From an uncultured Aureimonas sp. (GTDB lineage Bacteria > Pseudomonadota > Alphaproteobacteria > Rhizobiales > Rhizobiaceae): 40,772 nucleotides of DNA. A program made the translations under genes and the position numbers. The stretch spans positions 1 to 40,772 of the forward strand of contig NZ_CAJYIU010000163.1 in the NCBI RefSeq assembly GCF_913775355.1. The letters are read 5' to 3'. Position 1 is the stretch's first letter. Every line of letters starts with the position of its first letter. Positions 11,622 to 33,053 of this stretch are shown in pieces. The notes beneath the pieces are model-generated. The model had not been told where the DNA came from, did no database searches, and saw only the letters and a program-made list of their open reading frames with translations.

Positions 11622-12473
11622 TCATCCAGCTTCGACCGGCGGCGGCGGGCCATGTGCCGCTGACCGGTTCACCAGCGATATCGGCGGTTTGTTGCCGATG
11701 GCACTATGCGGTCGCACCTCGTTGTAGTCTCTACGCCAAGCCTCGCATTTGCGCACCGCGTCGTCGAGGCTCATGAACCAGTGCTGGTTCAGACACTCTG
11801 CCCGGAACTTGCCGTTGAACGACTTGGGTGTTGGCGTTGTCCGTCGGCTTTCCGGGCCGGGAGAAGTCGAGCACGACACCGTGGGTATAGGCCCACAGGT
11901 CCAACTCGCGCGAGACGAACTCGCTCCCCTGGTCGACCCGGATCGACGCGGGATAGCCCACCTCGCCGCAGACGCGTTCGAGCACGCCCACGACGTCGGG
12001 AGCCCGGAAGCTGAAGCGCGGCACCACCGCCGGCGAGAACCGGCTGAAGGTGTCCACGACGGTCAGGATACGCAGCTTCGGTCCCGTCGCGAGCTGGTCA
12101 TGGACAAAATCCATGGCCCATACCTCGTTCGAGCAGGACGCCGCGCAGCGGCCCTCCCGCAGCTTCGCCTTGACCCGGCGCTTGGGTGGTCTGTGCCGCA
12201 GTTGCAGACCCATCTCCTTGTAAAGACGATAGATCCGTTTTGCGTTCACGTCCCAGCCCTCCCGCCGAAGCAAGACGTGGATGCGTCGATACCCATAGCG
12301 CACCCGCGTCTCGGCGATCTCCTTCACTCGCTTCTTCAGATCGGCCTGATCGGCGCGGCGCCCACGATAGTGGTAGCTTGATCGCTCCGCCCGAAGCACA
12401 GTACAGGCCCGCCGGATGCTGACCTGCCACGTGCTCCTGACGTCGTCGACGAGCTGCCGGCGCCGGTCAGGCC
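11622..12473 (-). pseudogene. IS3-family OrfB (DDE transposase), frame-disrupted
   Basis: Integrase-core sequence (RYGYRRIHVLLRREGW...VWAMDFVHDQL...RVDQGSEFVSRELDLWAY...GKPTDNAN) changes frame at about 11825 and continues as SFNGKFRAECLNQHWFMSLDDAVRKCEAWRRDYNEVRPHSAIGNKPP. Confidence 0.88.
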
Positions 12474-13625: not shown

Positions 13626-14705
13626 TCATCCAAAACGTTGCTGGGATTCAGCGTCGAAAAGGTGGACGCGCTCGGGCTGAATCCGGATGGGAAGCACGTC
13701 GCCTGGTCCGCCGGCGAGATGGTCGCGCAGGACGACGACGAGATCGTCTTCGCCGAGCTTAACTACGAGTTGCGTCTCGGAACCCATGGGTTCGATGACC
13801 GAGATGATGCCCATTCCGTGCGTGGCAGCGACGTCGCCGAGATGGATGTGTTCCGGCCGGATGCCGTAGACGATACGTCTGTTTGCGTTCAGCTTCATGG
13901 CGCCTTCCGGCAGCGGCAGGAGGGTGCCGCCCTTGCTACGGAACATCAGCTCCGCCTTGTCGGAGACGATGTCGCCTTCAAGAAGATTCATCGACGGCGA
14001 GCCGATGAAGGCGGCGACGAAGAGATTGCGCGGCGCATTGTAGAGATCGAGCGGTCGCCCGACCTGCTCCACCTGTCCCCCATTCATCACCACAATCCGG
14101 TCGGCCATCGTCATCGCTTCGATCTGGTCGTGCGTGACATAGACCATCGTCGTCTTCAGCCGCTGGTGCAGCGACTTGATTTCCGCGCGCATCTGCACGC
14201 GCAGCTTGGCGTCGAGGTTCGACAGCGGTTCGTCAAAGAGGAAGACCTTGGGATCGCGCACGATGGCGCGGCCCATGGCGACGCGCTGGCGCTGGCCCCC
14301 CGAGAGCTGCTTCGGCAGCCGTTCGAGAAGGGGCCCGAGCGCGAGGATGTCTGCCGCCTTGCGCACGCGCTCGGCGATCGTGGCCTTGTCGCTTTTGGCC
14401 AGACGAAGCGAGAAGCCCATGTTTTCTGCCACCGACATGTGCGGGTAGAGTGCATAGGTCTGAAACACCATGGCGACGTCCCGCTCCTTGGGCGGCACGT
14501 CGTTCACGGCCCGTCCGCCGATGCGGATGTCGCCGCCGGTGATCTTCTCGAGGCCGGCGATCATTCGCAGGAGGGTCGATTTTCCGCACCCCGACGGACC
14601 GACGAGGATGACGAACTCGCCGTCGGCGATGTCGAGGTCGACATCCTTGATGACGGCATGGGCACCGTAAGATTTCTGGACGCCACTGAGGGAGAGGGGG
14701 GCCAT
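13626..14705 (-). CDS. Carbohydrate ABC transporter ATP-binding protein (UgpC/MsmK-like)
   Basis: Walker A GPSGCGKSTLLR, signature LSGGQRQRVAMGRAI, Walker B VFLFDEPLSNLD, H-loop VTHDQIEA, C-terminal TOBE-like region. Confidence 0.95.
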   Translation of the reverse strand: MAPLSLSGVQKSYGAHAVIKDVDLDIADGEFVILVGPSGCGKSTLLRMIAGLEKITGGDIRIGGRAVNDVPPKERDVAMVFQTYALYPHMSVAENMGFSLRLAKSDKATIAERVRKAADILALGPLLERLPKQLSGGQRQRVAMGRAIVRDPKVFLFDEPLSNLDAKLRVQMRAEIKSLHQRLKTTMVYVTHDQIEAMTMADRIVVMNGGQVEQVGRPLDLYNAPRNLFVAAFIGSPSMNLLEGDIVSDKAELMFRSKGGTLLPLPEGAMKLNANRRIVYGIRPEHIHLGDVAATHGMGIISVIEPMGSETQLVVKLGEDDLVVVLRDHLAGGPGDVLPIRIQPERVHLFDAESQQRFG

Positions 14706-14764: not shown

Positions 14765-15790
14765 TCACATCACGAAGACGGCTTTTTCAGTCCTGCGCTC
14801 GTCGAACATGCGGAAGGCCGTCTCGGCGTCGTCCAGCGCGAAGCGGTGTGTGGCGAGGCGTTCGAGATCAATGTTCTTGGCCTCGATGACGCGCGTGATC
14901 TCGGGGTATTCGGCAATGTTGAAGTACCAGGACCCGAAAATCGTCACCTGCTTGCGGATCAGCTGTTCGCTCGGACGGATCGTCGTCTCGCGGCTCTCGC
15001 CGACGCAGGCGAGCTGGCCGAACGGGGCGAGCGCGTCGAGCGCCATGTTCTGTGCACCGCCGTTGCCCGAGCAGTCGATCGCCCGGTCGAGGCCATGGCC
15101 TTGCGTGAAGTCCTTCAACGTCGCGAGGGAGGCGGGATCCGTCGGGTCGAGCGCGAGATCGGCCCCGAGTTCGAGCGAGAAGCGTCGGCGCTCCTCGATG
15201 GGATCGAATGTAACGACGCGCCCTCCAAGTGCCTTGGCGGCCAGGGTTCCGGCCGAGCCCATTGGTCCAAGTCCCCAGATGCCCACCGTCTTCGACCCGT
15301 CGATGCCGAGCTTCCTGCTCGCCGAATAGAGCGTGCCGAAGGCATCCGTGGAGATGGCCGCCGCAACGAAGGACATGGAATCGGGAATGCGCAGGAGGTT
15401 CCGGGCGGGAACCGCGAGGTATTCGGCGTTGCCGCCATCCTGCGTGAAGCCGAGGCAGGTCCATTGCGGGCAGAGGAACATCGAGCCCTGCCGGCAATAT
15501 TCGCAGGTGCCGCAGCCGACGGCGAGGTACACCGCGACCCGGTCGCCGGAGCGGAACTGGGTGACGGCGGCGCCGACCTCGACGACGATCCCTGCTGGCT
15601 CGTGTCCGGTGATGCAGCGTCCGGCTGCCTCACCGCCCACCGTGGCATCGCCACCGTAGTAGAGGCTCATGTCGGACCGGCATATGCAGGAGGCCTTGAC
15701 CTGGACCAGGACTTCGTCCGCGCGAGGCGTCGGCACTTCGACGGCGCGAATTTCGACACGCTTGTTGCCGGGGAGATAGACGGCTTTCAT
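14765..15790 (-). CDS. Zinc-dependent alcohol/polyol dehydrogenase (MDR)
   Basis: CRSDM, GHEPAGIVVEVG, structural-zinc cysteines GCGTCEYCRQGSMFLC, GLGPMGSAG. Confidence 0.92.
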   Translation of the reverse strand: MKAVYLPGNKRVEIRAVEVPTPRADEVLVQVKASCICRSDMSLYYGGDATVGGEAAGRCITGHEPAGIVVEVGAAVTQFRSGDRVAVYLAVGCGTCEYCRQGSMFLCPQWTCLGFTQDGGNAEYLAVPARNLLRIPDSMSFVAAAISTDAFGTLYSASRKLGIDGSKTVGIWGLGPMGSAGTLAAKALGGRVVTFDPIEERRRFSLELGADLALDPTDPASLATLKDFTQGHGLDRAIDCSGNGGAQNMALDALAPFGQLACVGESRETTIRPSEQLIRKQVTIFGSWYFNIAEYPEITRVIEAKNIDLERLATHRFALDDAETAFRMFDERRTEKAVFVM

Positions 15791-15811: not shown

Positions 15812-16630
15812 TCACTTCACCGCGCCGGCCGTCAGGCCACGCACGAACGAGCGCTGCATGAGAAGAAAGAGGACGACGAGCGGCGCGAAGGCGATGGTGC
15901 CTGCAGCGGCGATGCCGCCGTAGTCGACGCCGTAGCGCCCCTGCAGCGAGGCTGCGCCGACGGTCAGCGGCTTCAGCGTCTCCGTCTGAAGCACCACGAG
16001 CGGCAGGAGATATTCCTGCCAGGAGAAGAGGAATACGATGAGGGCGAGCGACATCAAACCGGGCTTGGCGACGGGCACCACGACCTTGAGAAAGACCTCC
16101 GGCATGGTTGCCCCGTCCATGATCGCCGCCTCGATCAGCTCGTTCGGCACGTCCTGCATGACGGTGCGCATCATGAAGATTGAGAAGGGCATCAGCAGTG
16201 CGGCCTGCGGAAGGATGACGCCGAGGCGCGTGTCGAGAAGGCCGACGGCCTGGAGGTTACCGTAGAGCGCGACGATGACCGACGGGGCCGGCAGCACGAG
16301 ACCGGCGAGGAAGAGGACGAAGAAGGCCTCCTTGCCGCGAAAGGCGAGCTTGGCGAAGGCGAAGCCGGCGATCGGCGCCGTCAGCACGATCAGCGCCGTC
16401 GAGGACACAGCTAGGAGGACGCTGTTGGCGAAATAGGTGGAGAAGCCGGACTGCGTCCAGACGCGGGCGTAGTTGGACAGGTCGATCGGCCAACTCAGAG
16501 CCAGCGGCGCAGCGAAGAGATCGGCCTCGCTGCGCACCGAGGCGAGCAGCACGAGATAGACGGGCAACAGGGCATAGAGCGCAAAAAGCGTCAGGACGCC
16601 GTACTGAAGGATGCGGCCGGCTCGGATCAT
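15812..16630 (-). CDS. Carbohydrate ABC transporter permease (MalG-like)
   Basis: MIRAGRILQYGVLTLFALYALLPVYLVLLASVRSEADL...EAAIMDGATMPEVFLKVVVPVAKPGL EAA loop; start at the CAT at 16628-16630. Confidence 0.93.
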   Translation of the reverse strand: MIRAGRILQYGVLTLFALYALLPVYLVLLASVRSEADLFAAPLALSWPIDLSNYARVWTQSGFSTYFANSVLLAVSSTALIVLTAPIAGFAFAKLAFRGKEAFFVLFLAGLVLPAPSVIVALYGNLQAVGLLDTRLGVILPQAALLMPFSIFMMRTVMQDVPNELIEAAIMDGATMPEVFLKVVVPVAKPGLMSLALIVFLFSWQEYLLPLVVLQTETLKPLTVGAASLQGRYGVDYGGIAAAGTIAFAPLVVLFLLMQRSFVRGLTAGAVK

Positions 16631-17487
16631 CGTGTCCTCAAGATACGGAAGCTCACGGCGCTGATCGTCAGGACGATCGCGAGGAGGACGACGGACAGGG
16701 CGGCGGCGTAGCCGAAGTCGCCGACGAGGAAGAAGGTCTTGTAGATATGGGTGGTGAGAACTTCCGTCGCGTAGCCCGGCCCACCCTGCGTCGTGACCCA
16801 GACGAGATCGAAGAATCTCATTGCCTCGATCGCGGCGTAGAGGCCGAGGAAGAGCGTGGTCGACTTCAGAAGCGGCACCGTGATGAAGCGGAAGCGCTGC
16901 CACCAGGTCGCGCCGTCCAATGAGGCCGCCTCGTAGAGCGACGGATCCACGGACTGGATCGCGGCGAGATAGATGACGACGCAGAAGCCGAAGAAGGTCC
17001 AAGCCCCGACGATGTTCAGCGAAACGAGGGCGCTTGAGGGCTCCGCCAGCCAGGCACCGGCGAGATGGCCGAGGCCGGCGATGTCGAGGCCCCAGTTGGC
17101 GAGGCCGAAGAGCGGGTTGTAGATCCATCCCCAGATGATCCCGGCGACGACGAGCGGGATGGTCCGAGGCAGGAAGTAGATGGCCCCGAGGACGCGGACC
17201 GTGCGCGGCGACATCTCGGCAAGGATCGCCGACAACAGGAGGCCCGCCATCAGCGGAAAGGCCAGCGTCAGGACGACCCAGATGGCGTTGTGCCCAAGGG
17301 CAGCCCAGAACACCCCGTCAGAACCGAGACGCAGATAGTTCGAGACGCCGGCAAAGCCTTGGACGATGCCGTTGTCAAATTTTAAGAACGAGTACACCGC
17401 CACCTGCCCGATCGGCAGTCCAACGAAGAGCATGTAGAGCGCGAAGGCTGGCAGAATGAAAAGATACGCCAGGCGGGTCTCGAACAT
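16627..17487 (-). CDS. Carbohydrate ABC transporter permease (MalF-like)
   Basis: LAYLFILPAFALYMLFVGLPIG...YEAASLDGATWWQRFRFITVPLLKSTT EAA loop. Confidence 0.93.
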   Translation of the reverse strand: MFETRLAYLFILPAFALYMLFVGLPIGQVAVYSFLKFDNGIVQGFAGVSNYLRLGSDGVFWAALGHNAIWVVLTLAFPLMAGLLLSAILAEMSPRTVRVLGAIYFLPRTIPLVVAGIIWGWIYNPLFGLANWGLDIAGLGHLAGAWLAEPSSALVSLNIVGAWTFFGFCVVIYLAAIQSVDPSLYEAASLDGATWWQRFRFITVPLLKSTTLFLGLYAAIEAMRFFDLVWVTTQGGPGYATEVLTTHIYKTFFLVGDFGYAAALSVVLLAIVLTISAVSFRILRTR

Positions 17488-17620: not shown

Positions 17621-18913
17621 TTAGGGCACCCAGCGCTCATTGTTGGCCTTGGCGGCCTCCCACGACGACTGCAGCGTTGCGAGAAACTCGGCGGGTTCGC
17701 TCTGGCCGCCGGCAAGGCGCTGCAGTTCGGAGTAAAGAACCTGCGTGACGCTTTCAGGCAAGGTCGTGTGAAGGTCATAGAAGTTGGTGTCGGGTGTCGC
17801 GAGACCCGCCGCGAAGAACTCCTTCACCACCGGCAGCACGTCCCAGCCCTCGATTTCCTCGACGGTCGAGCCGATCGGCACGAGGAACCCCTTCTCGCCC
17901 CACGTCTTTCGGTTCTCGGGCGTCAGCAGGCAGTCGACATAGGCCGCGGCCGCATCCTTGACGGGCTGCGCCGACTTTTCGGCAATCTGCCACTGCGAAC
18001 CCTCGCCCCACATCGTACCGGCGGGAATGCCCTCGCCGATCGGCGGCAGCATGAAGACGCCAAGGTCGAACTTGGCGCCGCGGGCGATGTCCTGAAGAAC
18101 CCAGGTTCCCGTGATCGTCATCGCAGCACGCCCGCCCAGGAACAGGGCGTTGGCCTCATCATAGCCGACGCCGTTGAAGCCGCGCGGGAAATAGCCTTTC
18201 GCGGTCCAGTCCTTCAGCGTCGTGGCGGCCTTGAGGAAGGGAGCATCGGTCCATTTGCCGTCGCGAAACAGAACGTCCTCTTCCATCTGACGGCCGGCCG
18301 AGAGGCCGAAGAGCAGCGAAAGCGTGTTGGTGGCGGGCCAGCGGTCGCGGTTGCCGAAGGCGATCGGCGTGTAGCCGGCCTGCTTGATCTTGTCGGCGGC
18401 CGCCTCGAACTCGGCGAAGGTCTTCGGCACGGAGAGCCCGAGCTCGGCGAAGATCGCCTTGTTATAGTAGACGCCCATCAGGTCCTGTTCCATCGGCACA
18501 CCGTAGAGGGAGCCTTGATAGGAGTTCCTGCCGCGGTAGAAGGCGTTGATACCCGCCCACTTGTATTGATCGTAGTATCCGTCGAGCTTGGCGAGGCGAC
18601 CGTTACGGGCATAGCCCGAAAGAACGGCCGCGGCGGGCCATGTGTAGGCGAGATCCGGTGTCTCGTTCGCCGACACGGCGAGGCGATAGGTCTCGCGGAT
18701 ACCGATCGAGGGCACCACGGTGCGCTTGACGTCGAGGTTCGGCAGCTTCGCCTCGCAGGCGCTGATCAGCGCCTCCATGGCTGGCCCAGCCGCCGTGATG
18801 CCGGTGGCGGCGAACTGGTCCCATTGCACGACGGGCGTTTTTTCCTGCGCGAGGGCGGGGGCCGACACGGTGGCGGCGAGCATGACAAAAGCGATGCGGC
18901 GAACGATCGACAT
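17621..18913 (-). CDS. Extracellular sugar-binding protein (SBP family 1)
   Basis: Signal peptide MSIVRRIAFVMLAATVSAPALAQ; YQGSLYGVPMEQDLMGVYYNKAIFAELGLSVPKTFAEFEAAADKIK. Confidence 0.93.
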   Translation of the reverse strand: MSIVRRIAFVMLAATVSAPALAQEKTPVVQWDQFAATGITAAGPAMEALISACEAKLPNLDVKRTVVPSIGIRETYRLAVSANETPDLAYTWPAAAVLSGYARNGRLAKLDGYYDQYKWAGINAFYRGRNSYQGSLYGVPMEQDLMGVYYNKAIFAELGLSVPKTFAEFEAAADKIKQAGYTPIAFGNRDRWPATNTLSLLFGLSAGRQMEEDVLFRDGKWTDAPFLKAATTLKDWTAKGYFPRGFNGVGYDEANALFLGGRAAMTITGTWVLQDIARGAKFDLGVFMLPPIGEGIPAGTMWGEGSQWQIAEKSAQPVKDAAAAYVDCLLTPENRKTWGEKGFLVPIGSTVEEIEGWDVLPVVKEFFAAGLATPDTNFYDLHTTLPESVTQVLYSELQRLAGGQSEPAEFLATLQSSWEAAKANNERWVP

Positions 18914-18984: not shown

Positions 18985-19815
18985 TCAGTCGGTGAGCAGC
19001 GGCTTCAAATATTCATAGGAGCGGCGGGCGATCTGGTCGGGCTCCACTCCACGTCGATTGAAACCGACCTCCATCGTGACGAAGCCCGCAAAATTTACCG
19101 CCTTCAGCGCCGCGATCAGTGCGACGTAGTCGACCGTGCCGTCGCCGGGCGCGTTGCGGTCGACGTCGGCGATGTGGAGGTGATGAAGGTCCTCGCCGAG
19201 CCGGTACACGTAATCCGACGGAACCTCGTTGCGGTAGAGCGCGTGGTAGGTGTCGAACATGCCCTTCACGTTGGGCTTGCCAACCGCGCGTTTCAGCGCC
19301 AGCACGTCGTCGACCGTATCGATGAGATTGGAATCGGCGGACGTCGGCTCGATGGCCAGTGTCACCCCGTGACCCGCCGCGAAGTCGGCCACCTCAACGA
19401 GGGCCTCCGTCGTCCAGCCGATAGCTTCCTCGCGCGTCGTGCCGAAAATCTGCCAGCCCGCGACATAGAGGACAGTTTTTCCGCCCCATTCAGCACAGAG
19501 CTCCGTGACCTTCTTGTACTGGTCGATCGCGGCGGCACGCTCCTCTGAGATCGGCGAGGCAACGTTGAAGCCTGGGCCGCCACCAGGCGCAGGCAGCATC
19601 GAGGCCACTTCCAGCCCTACATCGTTCAAGAGATTGCGAATGTCGGTCCGGCGTTGCTTCGAGACGTGGTCTGGATAGGCATGCGGATTGGCCGCGCCGA
19701 TCTCGATGCCGTCATAGCCGATCGCGGCGATGCGCTTGATCGTGTCTTCGAGCGTATAGGCTGGGACCCACACCGGGAAGCTCGAATAGACCCAAGTGTT
19801 GAACGCAAGCCTCAT
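18985..19815 (-). CDS. Sugar phosphate isomerase/epimerase (xylose isomerase-like TIM barrel)
   Basis: MRLAFNTWVYSSFPVWVPAYTLEDTIKRIAAIGYDGIEIGAANPHAYP...MFDTYHALYRN...HLHIADVDRNAPGDGTVDY; GGGAG RBS before the ATG at 19815. Confidence 0.88.
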   Translation of the reverse strand: MRLAFNTWVYSSFPVWVPAYTLEDTIKRIAAIGYDGIEIGAANPHAYPDHVSKQRRTDIRNLLNDVGLEVASMLPAPGGGPGFNVASPISEERAAAIDQYKKVTELCAEWGGKTVLYVAGWQIFGTTREEAIGWTTEALVEVADFAAGHGVTLAIEPTSADSNLIDTVDDVLALKRAVGKPNVKGMFDTYHALYRNEVPSDYVYRLGEDLHHLHIADVDRNAPGDGTVDYVALIAALKAVNFAGFVTMEVGFNRRGVEPDQIARRSYEYLKPLLTD

Positions 19816-19956
19816 ATTTATTCTCCCGCCTTCGCCACGGATGCCTGTCCTCAGGATCGGAGGATGCCCCCGTTCTTCCATGCGCAAAAGCACCTGTTCC
19901 ACAGCGCTTTCGTTATCGGAGTTTCTTTTCACGTCGTCGAAGAGGGCGGGCACCTT

Positions 19957-19984
19957 AATTCGTCCAGTTTGGACCATTCGAATT
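19957..19984. promoter_or_regulatory. Candidate operator upstream of the epimerase-led operon
   Basis: GTCCA-GTT-TGGAC (19962-19974) within AATTCG...CGAATT flanking arms. Confidence 0.4.
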
Positions 19985-20049
19985 TGGGCCGCTTCTGGGC
20001 CTTATATGGGAGACGCGTCCATCGGCTCGTCAGGTCTGCGCCTTCGCGT

Positions 20050-21858
20050 TCACCCAGGCTTACGAGGCAAGGCCTCCGCGCGCCGCTGAGCGTCCGTCAA
20101 AGCAGCTTTCGGTGCCTTCAGGCCAAGAAGCATGTCGTGCATCTCCTCTCCGGCGATCCGAATGATGGCCGAGATGCCCGGTATGGGAGGGCGCGGCCAC
20201 ATCCGCAGCGTGCGCTCGCGTGCCATGCGATCTACCACGCCGATCACATCAGAAACCGCTGAGACGTCCGGGTCGCTGTTGACGCTGAAGCGCGGGCTGG
20301 CGAGGCTGCCGTTGAGAATATAGAGCTTGGCGGCGCTTGCCGAGGTGAGCGTCGAGAGCGCCGTCCAGGCAGCCTCGATGCGATCAGGCGCGATATTGGC
20401 CGGGATCGCCAAGGCATAGCCACCGAGCGGAGCGACCGGGCTGCCTTTGCGGCCGGTCGGGTGAGGAAGATAACCGGTCTGGTCATATGCCGGCGAGGCA
20501 GGCTTCCGCGCGAAAAGATGCGCGAGCAAGGTGTGGGAGTAGGCTAAGGCCGTGCGGCCGGAGGCAAAGGCGCGAGCCCGGTCGTACCAGACCATGGACA
20601 GGATCTCCGGCGGCGAAAGCGACAGGAGTTCGCGCAACACCTCTGCCGTTTCCCGTGCCGCATCAGACAGGAAGGCCGGGCGCAACGCCGCATCCTGGGC
20701 GCGTTCGATGTCGAACTCGCCATCGCGGTCCCGCGGCAGGGCCACGACGGGCTCGCCATGGGCAGCCATGAGGGTCATGAACGTATGCCCAAGCGCCGTG
20801 CCGCGCCCCCCGTTCCACGCAATGCCGCTGATTCCACGCTCCGGCCGGTGCAGGATCCGGGCGGCTTCGAGGAGCGCGGGAATGGTTCGGGGCGGCTCGA
20901 TGCCGGCATCGGTGAGAAGGTCGCGCCGATAGACCAGCATCTCGGCGGTTGCTAGGACCGGTATGCCGTACTGGCGACCGCGCCACCTCGCGCTCGCAAC
21001 GGCATCCGGCACGAAGTCGCCAAGTTCATGCCCCGTCGCGAGGAGCAGGTCATCGAGCGGGCGCAACAGGCCGGCCGAACCCATCTCGCCGAACCAGGGC
21101 ATATCGCATGCCACGATATCGTAGGCAGAGACCCGTTGCGCACCGTTCTCAACGATCTCGCGCTGGAGGCGATCAATCGACAGGGCGCGCGCATGGATTT
21201 CCACGCCGAGAATCACCTCGAACTGACGCTTGAGAGCGTTCATCGCCATGAACGTCGGGTCGGCATGAACGAGGAGCCGCAGACCCTTCGGCAGCGCGAG
21301 TTTAGTCTTCAGAACGGCTGGCGGAGAAATAACACCTCGAGCGGACTGCCCTGGTGATCTAGGGCGAGCATCGGGTTTCGACCGCGAGTCCGCAGTCAAG
21401 TCCGTCGCAGAATCGCGCAAAGCCTTGGCAAAGACCTGCCAGCGTCGCAGCAGTTCGCTGGACGGATGGAGGGACACGGACTTTCCCGTCGCCGTGCGCG
21501 CCCGCCGGACAATCAGGCCAGCACGCGCCAGTTCGTCGATCGTGCGTATAGCGCTGCCATGGCTCAGCCCCGACGCATGGGCCAGCGATGTCGGCGTGGT
21601 GAGGCGGCCGGACACGTAGTTGCGCATGAGCTCGACGGCAATTCCTAGACCTCGTCCGTCCAGCTCCGGCAAAAGTCGATCGCGGCGTGCAGCCTCTACG
21701 GCCTCGACGAAGTGTGCGACCTGCCTGACATCGATGTGAGACTGCGGGTCGATCCGCGCCCGATCCGCCGCCTCGTAGGGTCCTTCGGGAGCGTCTGCAG
21801 AAACCGGATTGGTACGACGGCTAACCACGACACCCTTACGACAGACTTCAAAAGGCAA
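20050..21858 (-). CDS. Predicted regulator: N-terminal winged-HTH fused to a C-terminal SBP family 1 domain
   Basis: N-terminal MRNYVSGRLTTPTSLAHASGLSHGSAIRTIDELARAGLIVRRART wHTH; C-terminal LRLLVHADPTFMAMNALKRQFE...YGIPVLATAEMLVYRRDLLTDAGIEPPRTIPALLEAARIL...GGYALAIPANI SBP; no signal peptide. Confidence 0.8.
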   Translation of the reverse strand: MPFEVCRKGVVVSRRTNPVSADAPEGPYEAADRARIDPQSHIDVRQVAHFVEAVEAARRDRLLPELDGRGLGIAVELMRNYVSGRLTTPTSLAHASGLSHGSAIRTIDELARAGLIVRRARTATGKSVSLHPSSELLRRWQVFAKALRDSATDLTADSRSKPDARPRSPGQSARGVISPPAVLKTKLALPKGLRLLVHADPTFMAMNALKRQFEVILGVEIHARALSIDRLQREIVENGAQRVSAYDIVACDMPWFGEMGSAGLLRPLDDLLLATGHELGDFVPDAVASARWRGRQYGIPVLATAEMLVYRRDLLTDAGIEPPRTIPALLEAARILHRPERGISGIAWNGGRGTALGHTFMTLMAAHGEPVVALPRDRDGEFDIERAQDAALRPAFLSDAARETAEVLRELLSLSPPEILSMVWYDRARAFASGRTALAYSHTLLAHLFARKPASPAYDQTGYLPHPTGRKGSPVAPLGGYALAIPANIAPDRIEAAWTALSTLTSASAAKLYILNGSLASPRFSVNSDPDVSAVSDVIGVVDRMARERTLRMWPRPPIPGISAIIRIAGEEMHDMLLGLKAPKAALTDAQRRAEALPRKPG

Positions 21859-22043
21859 GTCGCCAAGGGTCGCCTGGCAAATTTCAAAAGCCGATTATGC
21901 GCGATCTCGGCGGATCGAGAACCAGCAGTGCGCACGCATCTTACCGCGTTTGACCCGTTCCCTCGAGAAATTTGATATCACCCTAGGTGTTTGATCCCAG
22001 GGTTTGATGGTGTGATCCTCTCCATGGAATGGAAGGATGCCCT

Positions 22044-22925
22044 ATGGGACAGGTTCGTCACGGCAGCGCCACGACCACGCACGCCATCCGAGCAGCAATA
22101 CAGCGATCGGAAGCTTCGCTCGCGACGCTGAGCCGGGAGTCCGGCATCAACCCAAAGACGGTGGCCAAGTGGCGTAAGCGTCAGACCCTGGAGGTTATGA
22201 AGACCGGGCCTAATGAGCCACGATCAACGACCTTGAGTGAGGCCGAGGAGGCGATGGTTGTCGCGTTTCGCCGGCACACGCTGCTGCCCTTGGATGACTG
22301 CCTCTACGCCTTGCAGCCGACGATCCCGCATCTGACCCGGTCAGCGCTGCACCGGTGCCTCCATCGACACGGCGTATCCAGATTGCCAGACGTCGACGGC
22401 GATAAGCCTAAGCGGCAGCGCTTCAAGCGCTATCCCGTAGGCTTCTTTCACATCGATATCGCTAAGGTGCAGACCGGTGAAGGCAAGCTCTACCTGTTCG
22501 TTGCGATCGACCGCACCAGTAAGTTCGCGGTCACCCAGCTCGTCGACAAGGCGGACAGGCGGACGGCTTGGGCGTTCCTCGCGCGCTTGCTGCAGGTCGC
22601 GCCGTATCGAAGCCACACGATCCTGACCGACAACGGCATCCAGTTCGCCGAGCAGCCGCGGAACCGCAATACGGCCTGGTCCCGGCAGATGCGCTTCGAC
22701 ATGATCTGCGAGGCCAACGGTATCGAGCATCGGCTGACCAAGCCGAACCACCCCTGGACGAACGGTCAGGTCGAACGGATGAACCGCACGATCAAGGAAG
22801 CCACCGTCAAACGCTTCCACTCCAAGAGCCCCGATCAGCTTCGCACGCACCTCGCCAACTTCATGGCGGCCTACAACTTTGGCCGCCGACTGAAGACGCT
22901 CGGCGGTCTCACACCCCAAGACTAG
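22044..22925 (+). pseudogene. IS481-family transposase, C-terminally truncated by an in-frame TAG
   Basis: MGQVRHGSATTTHAIRAAIQRS...GFFHIDIAKVQTGEGKLYLFVAIDRTSKFAVTQL...NHPWTNGQVERMNRTIKEATVKRFH...NFGRRLKTLGGLTPQD*; reading through gives IARIWTSEPNRFIVNPVHQMPGLNT* to 23003. Confidence 0.88.
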
Positions 22926-23062
22926 ATCGCCCGGATCTGGACCTCAGAGCCCAACCGGTTCATCGTCAATCCGGTCCACCAGATGCCGGGACTGAACACC
23001 TAGCTCCTCTTGGAATTATACGACGGGCTTCGCGGGCAACGATCGAAGTTTCCATCGGCTCG

Positions 23063-24121
23063 TCATATGGCGGCGCGGACGCCATCGGCGTAGATATGTG
23101 CATGCTGGGAGGGCATGACGACACGCAGCGCATCGGCTGGGATAGTGTGCTCGCGCGGCAGTTTGGCCTTGAGCCGGGCGCCGTCGGCTAGTTCCAGTTC
23201 CACGACGCGCACATTGCCCTGGTCCTGCACGCCAATCACTTGGGCGGGCAGGCCCGTATCCGTCGCGCTGAGTCGAATATGCTCTGGGCGGATTCCGACC
23301 GTCAGGGTGCCGCCGACGATTGTCGGCGCGTCGTTCCGGATGATCTCCCCGCCGACGCGGATCTCCCCACCGGACTGCGTGGCGGGCACGAAGTTCATTC
23401 CGGGCGAGCCAATGAAGGTGCCGACATAGGCGTTGAGGGGGCGCTCGAAGAGGTCCTTGGGCGTGCCGCGTTGGATCACCCGTCCCGCCTGCATGACGAG
23501 GATCTCGTCGGCGAAGGTCATCGCCTCGTTCTGGTCGTGCGTGACGTAGATGACGGTGTGGCGGGTGCGCTCGTTGGCCTGCTTGATGCGGCGGCGCAGA
23601 TCGAACTTCATCTGCGGGTCGATGACGGTGAGCGGCTCGTCCATAAGCAGCGCTGCCACGTCGTCGCGCACGAGGCCGCGGCCGAGCGAGATGAGTTGCT
23701 TCTCGTCGGCCGTCAGCGACCGAGCGGAGCGCCCGAGGCGGGCGGTCAGGCCGAGAAGTTCGGCGACCTCCGACACCCGCCGCTCGATGCGCGCCTTGTC
23801 CCAGTTCCGACATTTCAGGGGAAAGGCGAGGTTCCCGAACACCGTCTTGGAACGGTAGACCACGGGAAATTGGAAGACCTGCGCGATGTTGCGGTCGGCG
23901 ATCGGGGCGCGCGTAACGTCTTGCTCGCCGAGGCGCACGCGCCCATCGGAGGGAAACAGCAGCCCCGAGACGATGTTGAGCATTGTCGTCTTGCCGCAGC
24001 CCGACGGCCCGAGCAGGGCGTAGGTCTTGCCGTCCTCGAAGAGGATGTCGGCGGGTTGGAGCGCGTGAGATCGGCCACCGTCGTAGGAATGGCCGACGCC
24101 GTCGAGATGGATGCGGGCCAT
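23063..24121 (-). CDS. ABC transporter ATP-binding protein (GlpT-like position, degenerate signature)
   Basis: Walker A GPSGCGKTTMLN; Walker B ALLMDEPLTVID; H-loop VTHDQNEA; signature replaced by LTADEKQLISLGRGL. Confidence 0.93.
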   Translation of the reverse strand: MARIHLDGVGHSYDGGRSHALQPADILFEDGKTYALLGPSGCGKTTMLNIVSGLLFPSDGRVRLGEQDVTRAPIADRNIAQVFQFPVVYRSKTVFGNLAFPLKCRNWDKARIERRVSEVAELLGLTARLGRSARSLTADEKQLISLGRGLVRDDVAALLMDEPLTVIDPQMKFDLRRRIKQANERTRHTVIYVTHDQNEAMTFADEILVMQAGRVIQRGTPKDLFERPLNAYVGTFIGSPGMNFVPATQSGGEIRVGGEIIRNDAPTIVGGTLTVGIRPEHIRLSATDTGLPAQVIGVQDQGNVRVVELELADGARLKAKLPREHTIPADALRVVMPSQHAHIYADGVRAAI

Positions 24122-25212
24122 CAGTGTCCTCCCTGCGAAGTCGCGCGCGGCGCGGCCATGAGCTGTCCGTCGCCGTGTCCGGCGAAGCAGAACAGGCGGT
24201 CGGGCGGGATGCGGAACGTCATGCTAGAGCCGTTGTGGACGACATGGACGCCCTCCCGCTGGATCGCGATGGGGCCGAAGGGCGCGTCGAGATAGATGAA
24301 GCTCTCGGAGCCCGAGATCTCCGAATAGGTGACGAGGCCGGTCGCCTCGCCCCGGCCGGCCTCGATCTCGATCTCGCCGGCGCGGATACCGAACCGGTAG
24401 CGTCCGGGCGGCAGGTTCGCGAAATGAGCTGGCGGTGGAAGGCGCACCGCGCCCAGATTCAAAGCCTCGGTCGCCAGTTCGCCCTCGATCACGTTCATCG
24501 GCGGATCGTTGACGATGCCGGCGACGAGCGCCGAGGCGGGACGGTCGAAGACGTCGGCCGGCGTTCCCGTCTGAAGCACGCGTCCCTCGTGCAGCACGAC
24601 GACGTGGTCACCGAGCATCATGGCCTCGGCGGGCTCGGTCGTGTTGTAGACCGCGATCGTGTCGGTCTGGGCACCGAGGATGCGCCGGAACTCGTCGCGC
24701 AGCTGCTCGCGCAGCTGGTAGTCGAGATTCACCAGCGGCTCGTCGAGGAGAAGGATCGGCGCGTGGCGCACGAGCGCGCGCGCCAGCGCCACGCGCTGCT
24801 GCTGCCCGCCAGAGAGCGCCGAGGGGCGCCGGTCGCCGAAGGCGCCGAGGCCCACGGTCTCCAGCTGCGCCTGGACGCGGGCCCGCACCTCGGCATCGCC
24901 CACGCCCCGGCGCCGAAGCGGGAAGGCGACGTTTTCGAAGACCGTGAGATGAGGGTAGTTGATGAATTGCTGGTAGACCATCGCGACGTCGCGCTGCCAG
25001 GCGGGCACCGTCTCGAAGGCGCGCCCGTCGAGCCGGATGTGGCCGGAGTCCACACCCTGGAGCCCGGCGAGCGCCCGCATCAGCGTAGTCTTGCCGGCCG
25101 AGGTACGGCCGATCACCGTGGTGAGGCGCCCGCGCGAAAACTCGGCCGTGATGCCGTCCAGGAAGGGCACGCCGCCCTCCCGGAGGCGAAGGTCGTCGAG
25201 AACGAGACTCAT
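24121..25212 (-). CDS. ABC transporter ATP-binding protein (GlpS-like position, degenerate H-loop)
   Basis: Walker A GRTSAGKTTLMR; signature LSGGQQQRVALARAL; Walker B ILLLDEPLVNLD; H-loop region YNTTEPAEAM. Confidence 0.93.
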   Translation of the reverse strand: MSLVLDDLRLREGGVPFLDGITAEFSRGRLTTVIGRTSAGKTTLMRALAGLQGVDSGHIRLDGRAFETVPAWQRDVAMVYQQFINYPHLTVFENVAFPLRRRGVGDAEVRARVQAQLETVGLGAFGDRRPSALSGGQQQRVALARALVRHAPILLLDEPLVNLDYQLREQLRDEFRRILGAQTDTIAVYNTTEPAEAMMLGDHVVVLHEGRVLQTGTPADVFDRPASALVAGIVNDPPMNVIEGELATEALNLGAVRLPPPAHFANLPPGRYRFGIRAGEIEIEAGRGEATGLVTYSEISGSESFIYLDAPFGPIAIQREGVHVVHNGSSMTFRIPPDRLFCFAGHGDGQLMAAPRATSQGGH

Positions 25213-25224
25213 GGGTGGAACCTC

Positions 25225-26055
25225 CTATCGGATCGCGCCGGCCAGCGTGCCGCGCGAGAGAAGCCGTTCGACGAAGAAGGCGATCAGGATGAGGGGGGCA
25301 ACGGAGACGAGGGCCGAAGCCGACAGGCTCCACCAGGGCGTCACGGATGAGTTCAGCGCGACTACCGCGACGGGCAGGAGCTGCGTGTCGGTGAAGGTTA
25401 GGGTGAAGGCGAAGAAGAAGTCGTTCCAGCCGAAGATCAGGCAGAACATGCCGGCGACGAGAATGCCGGGCAGCGAGTTCGGCAGGACGACGCACCGGAA
25501 GGCCTCGAAGGGCGAGCAGCCGTCGAGCATGGCCATCTCGTCGATGGCGCGCGGCACGCCGTCAAAGAAATCGACCATGATCCAGACCGCGATGGGCAGG
25601 AGGAGCGCGATGTAGACGAGGATCAGCCCGATCTTCGAGTCCAGGAGGTTCAGGAACTGCAGGAGCAGGAAGAACGGGATCGACAGGACGATCGGCGGCA
25701 TGATCCGCTGGGAGATGAAGAAGAACACGAGGTCGGCGTTCTTCACGAAGCCAGCCTTGTAGGTGAAGCGCGACAGGCCGTAGGCGGCAAGCGTGCCGAG
25801 CACCAGCGAGATGGCGGTGGCGCTTAGCGTGACGATGAGGCTGTCGAGATAGGGTTTGGCGATGTCGATGCCGCCCGCCCCGCCGAACAGCGAGCGCCAG
25901 CCAGCGAGCGAAGGCTCGTACTGGAGGTAGGGGATGTAGGTCGGCCCGCCCGTCACGGCGTTGGCGGTCTTGAACGAAGTCGTCAGCGCCCAGAGGAGCG
26001 GCGTGACGACAAAGGCGCCCCAGAGGACGACGAGGACATACTTGAGCGCCTTCAT
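25225..26055 (-). CDS. ABC transporter permease (MalG-like)
   Basis: MKALKYVLVVLWGAFVVTPLLWALTTSFKTANA...DEMAMLDGCSPFEAFRCVVLPNSLPGI. Confidence 0.92.
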   Translation of the reverse strand: MKALKYVLVVLWGAFVVTPLLWALTTSFKTANAVTGGPTYIPYLQYEPSLAGWRSLFGGAGGIDIAKPYLDSLIVTLSATAISLVLGTLAAYGLSRFTYKAGFVKNADLVFFFISQRIMPPIVLSIPFFLLLQFLNLLDSKIGLILVYIALLLPIAVWIMVDFFDGVPRAIDEMAMLDGCSPFEAFRCVVLPNSLPGILVAGMFCLIFGWNDFFFAFTLTFTDTQLLPVAVVALNSSVTPWWSLSASALVSVAPLILIAFFVERLLSRGTLAGAIR

Positions 26056-26936
26056 GCCGTCTTTCCTCCGACGAACACACGAACCAGAAGCTTGGCGACG
26101 ATCGTGAGCAGGACGATCATGATGACGAGGTAGGTGATCGAGAGCGCCGCCGCGTAGCCGATCTGGAAGTCGCGAAGGCCCCGGATGTAGATGTAGTAGC
26201 CGGTGGTCTCGGTCGCCGTGCCGGGCCCGCCCGAGGTGAGGACGTAGACCGTCTCCATCAGCTTTGACGCCTCGATGAGGCGGATGATGATCGCTCCGAT
26301 CGAGACGGGCGCAAGCAGCGGGAATGTGACGTTGAAGAAGGTGCGGATCGGCCCCGCGCCGTCGATGGCCGCGGCCAGGAACGGCTCGCGCGGCAGCGAG
26401 ATCAGGCCCGCGAGTAGCAGCAGGAACATGAAGGGCGTCCACTGCCAGATTTCGACCAGCATCACGGAGGCAACAGCCCATTCCGCCGAGGTCAGCCAGG
26501 GATACGGCCCGAGGCCGATGAAGCCGAGGAGGTCGTTGGCGGGCCCCAGCGACTCATGGAAGATCGTGCGCCAGATCACCGACATGACGACCGGCGTCGT
26601 CATCATCGGGATCAGGAACAGGACGCGCCACAGCCGGCGGAAGCGGATGTCGCGCCAGACGAGGAGCGCCAGCGCGAAGCCCAGCACGTACTGGATCAGC
26701 ACCGTGCCCACCGCCATCAGGGACAGACGGCCGAGCGACTGCCAGAACCGGACGTCGTTGAAGACGCCGGCATAGTTGCGCACGCCCGCCCAGTCGAGGC
26801 CCGGCACGATCGCATCCCAGCCCGACAGCGAGACGCGGATGGTGAAGAGCAGCGGGAACAGGATGATGGCGAGAAGGACCAGGAGGCCGGGCAGGAGGAA
26901 GGCGAGCTTGTAGGGACGGAATTCGCGCTGCTGCAT
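26052..26936 (-). CDS. ABC transporter permease (MalF-like)
   Basis: KLAFLLPGLLVLLAIILFPLLFTIRVSLSGWD...LAAAIDGAGPIRTFFNVTFPLLAP; overlaps the next gene by 4 nt. Confidence 0.92.
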   Translation of the reverse strand: MQQREFRPYKLAFLLPGLLVLLAIILFPLLFTIRVSLSGWDAIVPGLDWAGVRNYAGVFNDVRFWQSLGRLSLMAVGTVLIQYVLGFALALLVWRDIRFRRLWRVLFLIPMMTTPVVMSVIWRTIFHESLGPANDLLGFIGLGPYPWLTSAEWAVASVMLVEIWQWTPFMFLLLLAGLISLPREPFLAAAIDGAGPIRTFFNVTFPLLAPVSIGAIIIRLIEASKLMETVYVLTSGGPGTATETTGYYIYIRGLRDFQIGYAAALSITYLVIMIVLLTIVAKLLVRVFVGGKTA

Positions 26937-27017
26937 GACGACAGGGCTCCGATGCGCGGCGAGGGAGGCCGGGGCCGGCAGCAGCCGGTCCCGGCAGGGC
27001 TCAAAGCGTCGCGGTCG

Positions 27018-28568
27018 TCAGCGGCCGCGATCTTCCAGCGCCACCACGTTGGCATAGGCCTCGCGGACGCGGTCGGGACCGATCCGGTCGACGATCTCCT
27101 TCCACTGCGCGGCGACCCCGTCGAGCGCCTCCTGGGGACTGCGCTGGCCAGCCATGGCTTCGGCGACGCCGTTGGCGAGCGTCGACATGAACTGGTTCAC
27201 GCCGGGCACGCGCAGATCGAAGACGCGGTTGTTGGACTGATCCATGCCTGACAGGGTGTCGACATAGGTCTTGGCCGTATTGGCCTCCCAGCCGAGCTTC
27301 TCCTGCCAGAAGGTCGGATCGAAGTGGGTGGTGCGATACGGATTGACGCCGAAGCGGCCGATCTGCAGATCGAGCTGCGTGTTGGCCTCGTTGGAGAAGA
27401 AGCACAGGAAGTCGAAGGCCATGTCTTGGTTCTTAGAGGCTTTGGAAACGGCCGACGTCCAGCCCCAGGTGATGTAGGGCGGGGCGTTCGGGGTCTCGAA
27501 CGTGTCCCAGGCGTTGGTGTCGCGGTTCCAGACCTGCGTGGAGCCCGGCAGCGGCGCGGCCGCCACCTTGTTGCGGATCGGGCTCGACGCCTCCTGCGCC
27601 TGGATGAAGGCGTCGTCCCAGGAATAGCTCATCAGCGACTGGCCGCCGCCGAACGAGAAGATCTCGTCGCCAAGGCCGAAATTGGTGCCGCCCGGCGGGA
27701 AGGCCTTCTGCGCGTCGATGAACATCTCCAGCGCTTTCACGAAGCCCGGATTGTTGATCTGCGGCTCCATCGTGTCGAGCTTGAAGAAGTAGCCGCCCTT
27801 CACGTTGGGGTTCTTGGTATAGGCGGCGGCGCGGCTGATGAAGGCCGAGAACATCAGATCGTCGCGCTTGGTCACCTCAGCCGAGCCGAACTGCCCGCGC
27901 CCGTCCTTGCCCCAGTCCCAGCCGGTGAAGAACTTGGCGACCGCGTTGTACTCCTCCCAGGTGCGCGGCACTCGCAGGTCTTGGCCCGTCTCGGCCTTGA
28001 AGCGCTGCTGGTATTCCGGGTTATCGAAGATGTCGGCGCGGTACTTGAGGTAGTGCCGGTCGCCGTCGACCGGATACTGGATCATCTGGTCGCCCCAGGT
28101 GGCGACGTCGCGGTAGTTCTGCGTGACCTCCTTCATCCCCGGCACCTCCTGATAGGCGGCCGGCACGGGCTGGAGGTAACTCTGGACGTCGCCGATCCAG
28201 AGCGAGGGGTAGAACATCACGTCGTAGGCGGCCTGGCGCGTCTGGAACGGGATCATCAGGCGCTGGTAGAGATCGCCGAACGGAATGTGCACGACATCGA
28301 CCTGCGCGCCGGTGAGCGCCTGGAACTGCTTGGCGTGGAGGTCCGTCGGCTCGCCGATCACCGGCACCGCGTGTGTGATGACGCGCAGCGTCTTGCCGGA
28401 ATAGTCCTTGGCGTCGATCGCCTCGTAGGAGCAGGCGCCCGGAACGTCCGGAGCCGAGCCGTACTGCGCATAGTCCCCGTAGGCCTTGTAGTCGATGTCG
28501 GCGGCGAACGACGGCGCCGCGGTGGCGAGCGCGCAGGCCGAGGTCATCCAGAATGCATGCCGTTTCAT
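27018..28568 (-). CDS. Extracellular solute-binding protein
   Basis: Signal peptide MKRHAFWMTSACALATAAPSFAA; LRVITHAVPVIGEPTDLHAKQFQALTGAQVDVVHIPFGDLYQRLMIPF; start at the CAT at 28566-28568. Confidence 0.9.
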   Translation of the reverse strand: MKRHAFWMTSACALATAAPSFAADIDYKAYGDYAQYGSAPDVPGACSYEAIDAKDYSGKTLRVITHAVPVIGEPTDLHAKQFQALTGAQVDVVHIPFGDLYQRLMIPFQTRQAAYDVMFYPSLWIGDVQSYLQPVPAAYQEVPGMKEVTQNYRDVATWGDQMIQYPVDGDRHYLKYRADIFDNPEYQQRFKAETGQDLRVPRTWEEYNAVAKFFTGWDWGKDGRGQFGSAEVTKRDDLMFSAFISRAAAYTKNPNVKGGYFFKLDTMEPQINNPGFVKALEMFIDAQKAFPPGGTNFGLGDEIFSFGGGQSLMSYSWDDAFIQAQEASSPIRNKVAAAPLPGSTQVWNRDTNAWDTFETPNAPPYITWGWTSAVSKASKNQDMAFDFLCFFSNEANTQLDLQIGRFGVNPYRTTHFDPTFWQEKLGWEANTAKTYVDTLSGMDQSNNRVFDLRVPGVNQFMSTLANGVAEAMAGQRSPQEALDGVAAQWKEIVDRIGPDRVREAYANVVALEDRGR

Positions 28569-28660
28569 GTGGGTCTCCTCCCGAGGATCGTCGCGCCCCT
28601 CCGGCGCAGGGTGGTCAGATAGAAAGACGCGGGGAACTCCCGTCCCGCGACTTTCGGGCA

Positions 28661-29713
28661 TCAGGGGATCAGGACGGCACGGCCGTGGATTTTCCCCGCA
28701 TTGAGGTCCTGCAGTGCCTGGTTGGCGTCGGCGAGCCGATATTCCACGGTCGCGAGATTCACGAGCCCGCGGTCGGCGAGCGCCATGAGTTCCACGAGCT
28801 CCGCCCAGGTCCCTACGAGATTGCCGATGATGCTCTTCTCGGCGATCACCAAGTCGACTGTGGGCACCACGATGTCCTCGCCGTAGCCGACGACATAATA
28901 GGAGCCTGCGCCGCGCGTCATCGCGAGGCCCTTTCTTGTGGTGCCCTTCTCGCCGACGAAGTCGATCACGGCTTCCGCGCCGTTGCCGCCCGTCAGCTGC
29001 AGCACGGCCTCGACCTCGTTGCCGTCGGCCTTCACGAGATGGTCGGCGCCCATCTTACGGGCGAGTTCCAACGAGGCGTCGGACTTGTCGACCACGACGA
29101 CATCGGCCGCGCACATCGCCTTGAGGCACTGGATGCCGATATGGCCGAGGCCGCCCGCGCCGATCACGACGCAGGTCTCGCCAGGCAGGAGGTGGCGCGT
29201 CGCCTTCTTCACTGCGCGGTAGGCCGTGAGGCCCGCGTCGGAATAGGGCGCGACATCTTTTGGAGCGAGCGTCTTCGGAAGTGGCACGATGTTGCGGTCG
29301 GACGTGCAAAGGAACTCGGCATAGCCTCCGTCGCAGTCCAGGCCCGGGAACTTGCCGGGTGCGTGCATGTCCATGCCGCGTCGACAGGCGAGGCACGTGC
29401 CGCCCGAGATCTTCGGATGGACGATTACGGGATCGCCCACCTTCACGTTCTCGACCTCCTTGCCGACCGCCTCCACCCAGCCGGCGTTCTCGTGGCCCAT
29501 GATGAAGGGCAGGAGCTGATCGGCGTTCGGATCCATGTGCGGACGCCAGACGCCCTCGATGATGTGCAGGTCGGTGCGGCATACGCCCGCCCCGCCGATG
29601 CGCACGATCACGTCGTTGGCCTTGGTGATGGTGGGGTCGGGAACGTCCTCGTAGCTCAGCCAGTTCGACGCCGTCAGATGATCGTCGTATGTCTTCAGGA
29701 CCTGCGCTTTCAT
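28661..29713 (-). CDS. Zn-dependent alcohol dehydrogenase (MDR) with reduced structural-zinc site
   Basis: GVCRTDLHIIEG, GHENAGWVEAVG, VVIGAGGLGHIGIQCLKAM; start at the CAT at 29711-29713. Confidence 0.92.
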   Translation of the reverse strand: MKAQVLKTYDDHLTASNWLSYEDVPDPTITKANDVIVRIGGAGVCRTDLHIIEGVWRPHMDPNADQLLPFIMGHENAGWVEAVGKEVENVKVGDPVIVHPKISGGTCLACRRGMDMHAPGKFPGLDCDGGYAEFLCTSDRNIVPLPKTLAPKDVAPYSDAGLTAYRAVKKATRHLLPGETCVVIGAGGLGHIGIQCLKAMCAADVVVVDKSDASLELARKMGADHLVKADGNEVEAVLQLTGGNGAEAVIDFVGEKGTTRKGLAMTRGAGSYYVVGYGEDIVVPTVDLVIAEKSIIGNLVGTWAELVELMALADRGLVNLATVEYRLADANQALQDLNAGKIHGRAVLIP

Positions 29714-29765
29714 GCCTTCTCCTCCCGTCGCGGACACCCGCTGGACCGGTGCCTGACGACCCTCC

Positions 29766-29781
29766 TGCAACCGCCGTGCCA
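29766..29781 (-). promoter_or_regulatory. Sigma-54 (-24/-12) promoter
   Basis: Minus-strand TGGCACGGCGGTTGCA matches TGGCACGNNNNTTGCW with exact GG-N10-GC spacing; 52 nt before the dehydrogenase start. Confidence 0.88.
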
Positions 29782-29840: not shown

Positions 29841-29889
29841 TCCAGTCGCTGGACGGCTCCCGCATCGATGTGTCCAGTTTCTGGTCATT
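29841..29889. promoter_or_regulatory. Two upstream activator palindromes for the sigma-54 activator
   Basis: CGTCCAG-TCG-CTGGACG (29841-29857, perfect 7-bp arms) and TGTCCAG-TTT-CTGGTCA (29873-29889, 6/7); centres 32 bp apart. Confidence 0.7.
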
Positions 29890-29947
29890 GCAGCCTGTCG
29901 CGCGCGATGTAGTCTGGTCATGGCCAATGTTGCGGGAGGGAGGAGCC

Positions 29948-32162: not shown

Positions 32163-33053
32163 GTGATCGGCAATGCCATTTCGCTGAAATTGCCGTATGA
32201 TCAGCGGATGTCGAGCGCTTTAAGAATTGCTCAGGGGAAATTCGGCCGCGTCGCCCTGTTGGACATGGATCGTCCGCTTGTGCGGCATGCTCATCCTCAT
32301 TGCCATGTTCTTTTGAAGGTGGAGGGTGCGGATACGCAGTTCTCGGTGCGCGACGACCTCGTTCCTCTCACCGACGACAGCGCCGTCCTCGTCAATGCAT
32401 GGGAACCACATGCCTATGCGCACGACGCTCGTCGCCCGCCGACGATTATCCTCGCGCTTTATATCGAGCCCAGGTGGCTCGCCGAATTTAGACCCAACTG
32501 GACCGCAAGCGGACGCCCCGGCTTCTTCGCGCGAGCCGCAGGCGCCATCAACCCGCGCATCCGCGTCCTCGCCGACGATATGGCGCGCGCGATGGTCGCG
32601 GAGCCGGGAAACCGAAGCCTGCACGAGACATTGTTATCGGCACTGATGGTGTCGGTCATCGAGCGATTCACTCCCTGGCGCGAGACGGCCGTCTCGCTCC
32701 GGGATCTGGCAAGGGGGCCGAGCATTGACCGGAGGATCCGTTTGGTCGCGGCCCAGATCAAGTCAGACCCGGGCGCGGTCCGGCAGATCGACGATTTGAT
32801 CTCCGGCTCGGGCGTGTCACGGGCGCAGTTCTTTCGGTTGTTCGAGACGTCCTTCGGCGTTTCACCGCGCATCTATCTGAACGCCGCCCGATTGGAGCGA
32901 GCCGTACAGGCCGTTTCCGACAGCGAGGCGAACCTCTCCGCGATCTCGGAGAGTCTTGGCTTTTCCGTTCCTGCGCATTTCTCCCGCTTCTTTCACGACC
33001 ATGCTGGTTCGTCGCCCTCGGGTTTCCGCGCCGTGACGCGAATGCCCGCTTAA
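32163..33053 (+). CDS. AraC family transcriptional regulator
   Basis: Cupin-like N-terminus (HAHPHCHVLLKVEG), C-terminal double HTH ending ISESLGFSVPAHFSRFFHDHAGSSPSGFRA. GTG start at 32163, or ATG at 32208. Confidence 0.93.
   Translation: MIGNAISLKLPYDQRMSSALRIAQGKFGRVALLDMDRPLVRHAHPHCHVLLKVEGADTQFSVRDDLVPLTDDSAVLVNAWEPHAYAHDARRPPTIILALYIEPRWLAEFRPNWTASGRPGFFARAAGAINPRIRVLADDMARAMVAEPGNRSLHETLLSALMVSVIERFTPWRETAVSLRDLARGPSIDRRIRLVAAQIKSDPGAVRQIDDLISGSGVSRAQFFRLFETSFGVSPRIYLNAARLERAVQAVSDSEANLSAISESLGFSVPAHFSRFFHDHAGSSPSGFRAVTRMPA

Follow-up and report, generated by a model that had tools for sequence, protein, structure and literature searches.

The locus comprises a regulator gene and a sugar ABC operon, both on the minus strand of the window, that is, the whole stretch of DNA that was analysed (40,772 nucleotides). 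The longest open reading frame of the regulator, at 20050-21858, encodes 602 amino acids from TTG 21858. The preliminary description had placed this frame upstream of the operon and on the same strand, which is correct once the strand is given as minus; the 602-residue frame does exist, but its start is better set at GTG 21828, which yields a MarR-SBP fusion protein of 592 amino acids encoded at 20050-21828. This start, at residue 11 of the longer frame, is the probable one, because a ribosome-site-like sequence (TAAGGG) precedes it and because it is collinear with 'MVSARS...PEGPYEA' in the closest orthologue (L005). A start codon that would remove the helix-turn-helix (HTH), which the same description had considered, is not what we found, as GTG 21828 leaves the entire HTH in place. 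Residue numbers below refer to the 602-residue frame. The fusion has been kept at full length in dozens of genomes, and it is therefore neither a chance event nor an assembly artefact.

The predicted target operon runs in the minus direction, from 19815 down to 13626. Its first gene (18985-19815) encodes a TIM-barrel epimerase/isomerase with an AP_endonuc_2 domain, whose nearest NCBIfam model, below the cut-off, is IolO, and which starts at ATG 19815 and not at 19977. It is followed by the secreted solute-binding protein (SBP) of a CUT1 transporter, with a signal peptide (17621-18913); by a first CUT1 permease (16627-17487); by a reading frame (15812-17128) whose C-terminal part, residues ~174-438, is the second permease, with a true start near 16640; by a zinc-dependent dehydrogenase (14765-15790), nearest to IolM and again below the NCBIfam cut-off; and by a UgpC-type ABC ATPase (13626-14705), the last gene. 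A sugar ABC operon with its own periplasmic SBP beside the regulator, as proposed earlier, is thus what the genes reveal. Promoter scans of the gap between regulator and operon returned no sigma-70-like promoter.

The operon (segment 13626-21858) looks horizontally acquired. A close copy of its SBP is absent from the 20 same-genus genomes listed, and a copy with 68% identity, in the same layout, occurs in a genome from another family of the same order (G740). Upstream of the regulator lies an IS481-type element (21983-23003). Its inverted ends are imperfect (71% over 28 nt), and they start and finish with CTAG. The element sits ~155 bp from the likely start of the regulator, and its insertion may have changed the promoter of this gene.

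Domain architecture and cellular location

The N-terminal part of the protein is a winged helix-turn-helix of MarR type (residues 38-155; 21394-21747, minus strand), as identified by AlphaFold2, Foldseek and Pfam MarR_2. At the sequence level the Pfam matches are weak (MarR_2, 0.0097; MarR, 0.0099, with 16.5 bits against a cut-off of 27), and a profile of this domain alone found at best a SlyA-like MarR protein among PDB sequences (0.034). The closest orthologue, from L005, does clear the Pfam MarR cut-off (27.7 versus 27 bits), a member from Paraburkholderia (L051) scores with HTH_IclR (30.8 versus a cut-off of 22), and phmmer aligns residues 31-128 with the solved MarR regulator 8ylf (2.3e-4). 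The AlphaFold2 model of residues 22-165 (pLDDT 80, pTM 0.69) has the order helix-helix-helix-recognition helix-wing-long helix, and with this model Foldseek retrieved 35 PDB matches at E<=0.001, those listed being MarR-type regulators; the top matches include MftR 8ylg (4.9e-5) and MepR (TM 0.67). Thus the winged helix that the preliminary description had read from the translation, and whose absence from the N-terminal 170 residues it had regarded as decisive against it, is present with a MarR fold. The recognition helix (residues 100-112) and the wing (116-132), contained in HGSAIRTIDELARAGLIVRRARTATGKSVSLHP (21463-21561, minus strand), are among the best-conserved stretches of the domain. 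A full-length AlphaFold2 model built from nine sequences was poor (pLDDT 50.5) and was left out for the SBP cleft and the domain arrangement.

The C-terminal part is a complete SBP family 1 domain (residues 195-595; 20074-21276, minus strand), in line with the original claim. The Pfam model SBP_bac_1 (PF01547) matches residues 237-510 with 2.8e-26 (93.7 bits versus a cut-off of 26), and the best PDB relative, the sugar ABC binding protein 5iai, aligns over residues 195-595 (7.9e-31). The lack of a signal peptide was also borne out: the first 70 residues reach a maximum KD15 hydropathy of 0.52, compared with 2.07 in the secreted SBP at 17621-18913, and a hydrophobic N-terminal segment is absent from all nine family members checked. 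The fusion protein is therefore almost certainly cytoplasmic, as judged from these profiles. That it could be an ordinary secreted SBP with a mis-called start is suggested by the strong SBP_bac_1 match and by the label 'extracellular solute-binding protein' on most plasmid records, but it is hardly credible, as in every member the SBP domain follows a conserved N-terminal winged-helix region that has no signal peptide, which contradicts a secreted identity.

What these domains describe is a one-component regulator of winged helix and type II (SBP family 1) domain, as had been proposed, and the principle is known, since SgrR and DsvR are HTH-SBP_bac_5 regulators. DsvR (Vca0578), the SgrR homologue of Vibrio cholerae, carries its HTH at the N-terminus and a solute-binding-protein domain at the C-terminus (PMC13060122). 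The fusion resembles SgrR of enterobacteria and DsvR in being a cytoplasmic one-component regulator with this domain order, but it differs from them in its sensor, SBP family 1 instead of family 5, and in its lineage, targets and predicted operator. The HTH of SgrR and DsvR is SgrR_N, and neither SgrR_N nor SBP_bac_5 is among the Pfam hits of the window protein up to E 0.1, which rules out membership of the SgrR family. Typical MarR proteins have ~140-160 amino acids and bind their ligand within the same domain; the N-terminal domain of the fusion has their topology and finds MarR proteins as its top PDB fold matches, and its predicted operator is a palindrome, whereas its chain extends into a 400-residue SBP sensor. 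With secreted SBPs of family 1, such as 5iai and the trehalose/maltose-binding protein 1eu8, it shares a full-length alignment of the C-terminal half, but it has no signal peptide, is joined to a DNA-binding domain and belongs to a separate clade. LacI-type regulators combine an HTH with a periplasmic-binding-protein fold of type I and serve local sugar operons, and LysR-type regulators combine a winged HTH with a type II PBP-like effector domain. The former family is ruled out because the window protein has no LacI HTH or type I Peripla_BP Pfam match, and the latter because it has no HTH_1 or LysR_substrate match, its sensor being instead a full sugar-type SBP. In the open-licence literature, a search for a MarR/SBP_bac_1 regulator returned no description of one, which is weak evidence of absence; the family is apparently undescribed.

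Distribution, phylogeny and neighbourhoods of the family

A scan of species genomes returned eight full-length relatives (48-68% identity), and 34 plasmid records cover the protein to >=80%; most annotated records among the latter carry the 'extracellular solute-binding protein' label. The full fusion was found in 8 of 289 genomes of a class-wide sample (10 genes, all with >=453 bits), where secreted SBPs match the sensor half only (<=177 bits), and in 7 of 397 genomes of a phylum-wide sample, one of them outside Alphaproteobacteria, that is, in ~2-3% of the sampled genomes. The window protein itself scores 960 bits in the family search and aligns through both halves, so it belongs to the family. 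Its own genome holds a second fusion paralogue, on contig C6 (32% identity). One further genome (G529, locus L085) has three fusion regulators, two of them ~6 kb apart on either side of a CUT2 operon and the third on a different contig.

The sensor halves of 37 sampled members, mostly from Alphaproteobacteria, form one clade with 100/100 support, in a tree whose outgroup branches are long, and because of this clade a single fusion event is suggested as the origin of all fusions. The phylogeny of the SBP half that had been called for was thus obtained, with the exception that the SBP at 17621-18913 had too low a score to be included and was compared pairwise only, giving 23% identity over part of the sensor's length (24.6 bits). 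This identity and the separate, old clade rule out that the sensor was copied recently from its SBP neighbour. A sensor built from the binding protein of the adjacent transporter, and for that reason reading the ligand which the earlier description had suggested, is therefore not supported in this form: the sensor half and the local CUT1 SBP are only distantly related, and most relatives adjoin CUT2/Rbs-type transporters, whose SBP is of a different family.

Sugar ABC operons adjoin the fusion gene in nearly all loci, which fall into three main groups. First, in group 1 (the window, L005, L014, L019 and L080) the fusion gene is followed by the TIM epimerase, the CUT1 SBP, two permeases, the zinc dehydrogenase and the UgpC ATPase, the last being annotated or detected in every locus except L005. 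Upstream of the fusion gene there is a CUT2 transporter in L014 and L019, a more distant CUT2 set in L005 and at least a CUT2 permease in L080; in the window the IS481 element occupies this place instead, without CUT2 genes. Second, group 2, from Rhodobacterales, several Rhizobiales and small 1.4-Mb genomes, combines a CUT2 transporter with genes for an SDR, a Xaa-Pro peptidase-like protein, E1alpha/E1beta, a lipoyl protein, SSADH and E2. The conserved cluster of SDR, Xaa-Pro peptidase-like protein, E1-E2 with lipoyl protein and succinate-semialdehyde-type dehydrogenase, together with CUT2 genes, adjoins the fusion gene, with varying completeness, in L006-L012, L015, L059-L061, L063-L065 and L084. 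Third, group 3, from Rhizobium, Sinorhizobium, Loktanella, Aminobacter and Shinella together with the paralogue in the window's own genome, has varying subsets of genes for an NAD(P)-oxidoreductase, a 2,3-butanediol-dehydrogenase-like protein, Gfo/Idh, YciI, an intradiol dioxygenase and maleylacetate reductase, and a transporter in some loci and none in others. Five loci (L017, L018, L052, L053 and L054) have sugar/cyclitol-type dehydrogenases, intradiol dioxygenase and maleylacetate reductase or YciI beside the fusion gene, and it is tempting to speculate that these clusters encode a polyol-to-hydroxyquinol route. The Paraburkholderia locus carries a CUT2 SBP, IolG and a hydroxypyruvate-isomerase-like gene. 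From these gene contents we infer that, as a theme common to the loci, a sugar, polyol or cyclitol is taken up and oxidised.

The variable company of the fusion gene bears on the role of its C-terminal half. The protein could bind DNA while this half gauges transport through protein contact, for instance with CUT1 or CUT2 permeases, or only oligomerises, which would accommodate both a sensor half that did not originate from the SBP next door and a transporter type that varies from locus to locus. We regard this as unlikely. Distant members retain the entire SBP fold, second lobe included, together with a large number of invariant residues such as W255, R352, W424, Y440 and G479-G480, as is expected of a working ligand cleft; moreover, a specific permease contact is unlikely because one sensor clade serves two unrelated transporter types. 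For the favoured role, ligand sensing, the same observations provide a lead: as the sensor is no copy of the neighbouring SBP and most relatives lie beside an unrelated transporter type, the sensed ligand may be a pathway intermediate. Cyclitols or keto-sugars are candidate ligands, a weak lead that comes from IolO and IolM being the closest NCBIfam models of the epimerase and the dehydrogenase, at scores under the cut-offs.

Predicted operator and proposed mechanism

The motif first emerged as a repeated TATCCA-NNN-TGGATA palindrome when divergent promoter regions from the Rhodobacterales group were aligned. When all 11,264 palindromes with 5-bp half-sites and gaps of 0-10 were searched in the noncoding DNA of 28 loci, ATCCA-N3-TGGAT ranked first, and its generalised form RTCCA-N3-TGGAY was present in 16 of the 28 loci, compared with 0-1 loci for gaps of 0-2 and 4-10 and 0-1 for permuted half-sites. 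Since this discovery set contains the loci that suggested the motif, three checks were added. First, with a PWM trained without group 1, the site at 19962-19974 is the top match of the 40.8-kb window (19.8, with the runner-up at 9.1), and in L005, L014 and L019 the best match likewise falls in this gap. Second, the 4.2-Mb genome of the window holds exactly two copies of RTCCA-N3-TGGAY, one beside each fusion paralogue; the second, at C6:3265, has the NAD(P)-oxidoreductase on one side and, on the other, the CUT2 operon next to the C6 paralogue. Third, of six genomes that played no part in the discovery, four carry a copy in the gap adjoining the fusion gene (L080, L081, L082 and L083), one of them outside Alphaproteobacteria, and the exact site is absent upstream of the fusion gene in the other two (G645 and G529).

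The predicted operator of the window, GTCCA-GTT-TGGAC (19962-19974, both strands; GTCCAAACTGGAC on the minus strand), is its only copy of RTCCA-N3-TGGAY and lies beside the fusion gene; the first gene of the operon begins ~147 bp downstream of it. The site is conserved in the same gap in L005, L014, L019 and L080, so that all five copies of the CUT1 operon that were found share the order fusion gene, operator, operon. The low-GC group has ATTCA-N3-TGAAT in the equivalent place, and in three small 1.4-Mb Alphaproteobacterial genomes (L063, L064 and L065) this variant occurs, together with the fusion regulator, at several promoters of the locus. In many relatives the sites are paired, with a spacing of 20-21 bp in 12 of 21 close pairs. 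Counting copies per genome fails as a test for the fusion, with 0-26 copies in genomes without it, 1-30 in genomes with it and two in the window's own genome; because fusion-free genomes hold as many copies overall, the argument rests on placement and not on number. This conserved operator-like palindrome inside the gap 19816-20049 favours the earlier suggestion that the regulator targets the neighbouring operon.

Alternatively, the palindrome might be the operator of another regulator that travels with the operons, the fusion protein binding elsewhere, given that the association is positional only and that two held-out genomes lack the exact site. This seems to us very improbable, as no other regulator gene was seen common to the loci, nor any inside the window operon; the two copies in the genome each abut one of the fusion paralogues, whose neighbours differ; and the site recurs at fusion genes whether these adjoin CUT1, CUT2 or catabolic genes.

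With a probability of roughly 85%, we propose that the fusion is a cytoplasmic one-component transcription factor that binds RTCCA-N3-TGGAY, uses its SBP domain as a sensor and controls the adjacent operon. The MarR-type winged helix would dimerise and bind the palindrome, the SBP family 1 domain would sense a small molecule, and a dimer at 19962-19974 would control the epimerase, CUT1 transporter and dehydrogenase genes. At tandem sites two dimers would probably sit side by side on one helix face, as the spacing of paired sites equals two helical turns. Closure of the SBP domain upon its ligand would change the DNA-binding geometry, and most likely a repressor would be released when the domain closes on an imported sugar, polyol or cyclitol, or on a catabolic intermediate. 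Ligand-released repression is somewhat favoured over activation, a preference taken solely from the MarR precedent.

At a broader level, we see an even chance that these proteins constitute an unnamed transcription-factor family that arose from one fusion of a MarR-type domain with a sugar SBP and is hidden as 'extracellular solute-binding protein'. Such a family would have kept one operator while the transporter varied, from CUT1 to CUT2 to catabolic genes without a local transporter, and its SBP fold would have moved from carrying nutrients outside the cell to sensing breakdown products inside it. Alongside SgrR, the fusion proteins would be a second and independent example of a transport SBP that has become a sensor within the cell. 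Because genome annotation calls the fusion proteins secreted binding proteins, their regulons are overlooked, and the predicted operator makes these directly testable. The ligand of the sensor would in turn point to the substrate of the flanking catabolic clusters, with their epimerases, IolM/IolG-like dehydrogenases, intradiol dioxygenase and maleylacetate reductase, or E1/E2 and SSADH, and the MarR-SBP architecture is a possible scaffold for biosensors.

Three further features of the window lie outside the regulator and its predicted operon. A second CUT1-type cassette (23063-29770) encodes two ABC ATPases, two permeases, a large SBP_bac_1 protein (547-residue reading frame) and a zinc dehydrogenase. 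After it come a GAF/sigma-54 activator (29870-31816) and an AraC regulator (32163-33053), and at 11731-12399 there is an integrase reading frame with rve and HTH_21 domains, an IS3-like remnant.
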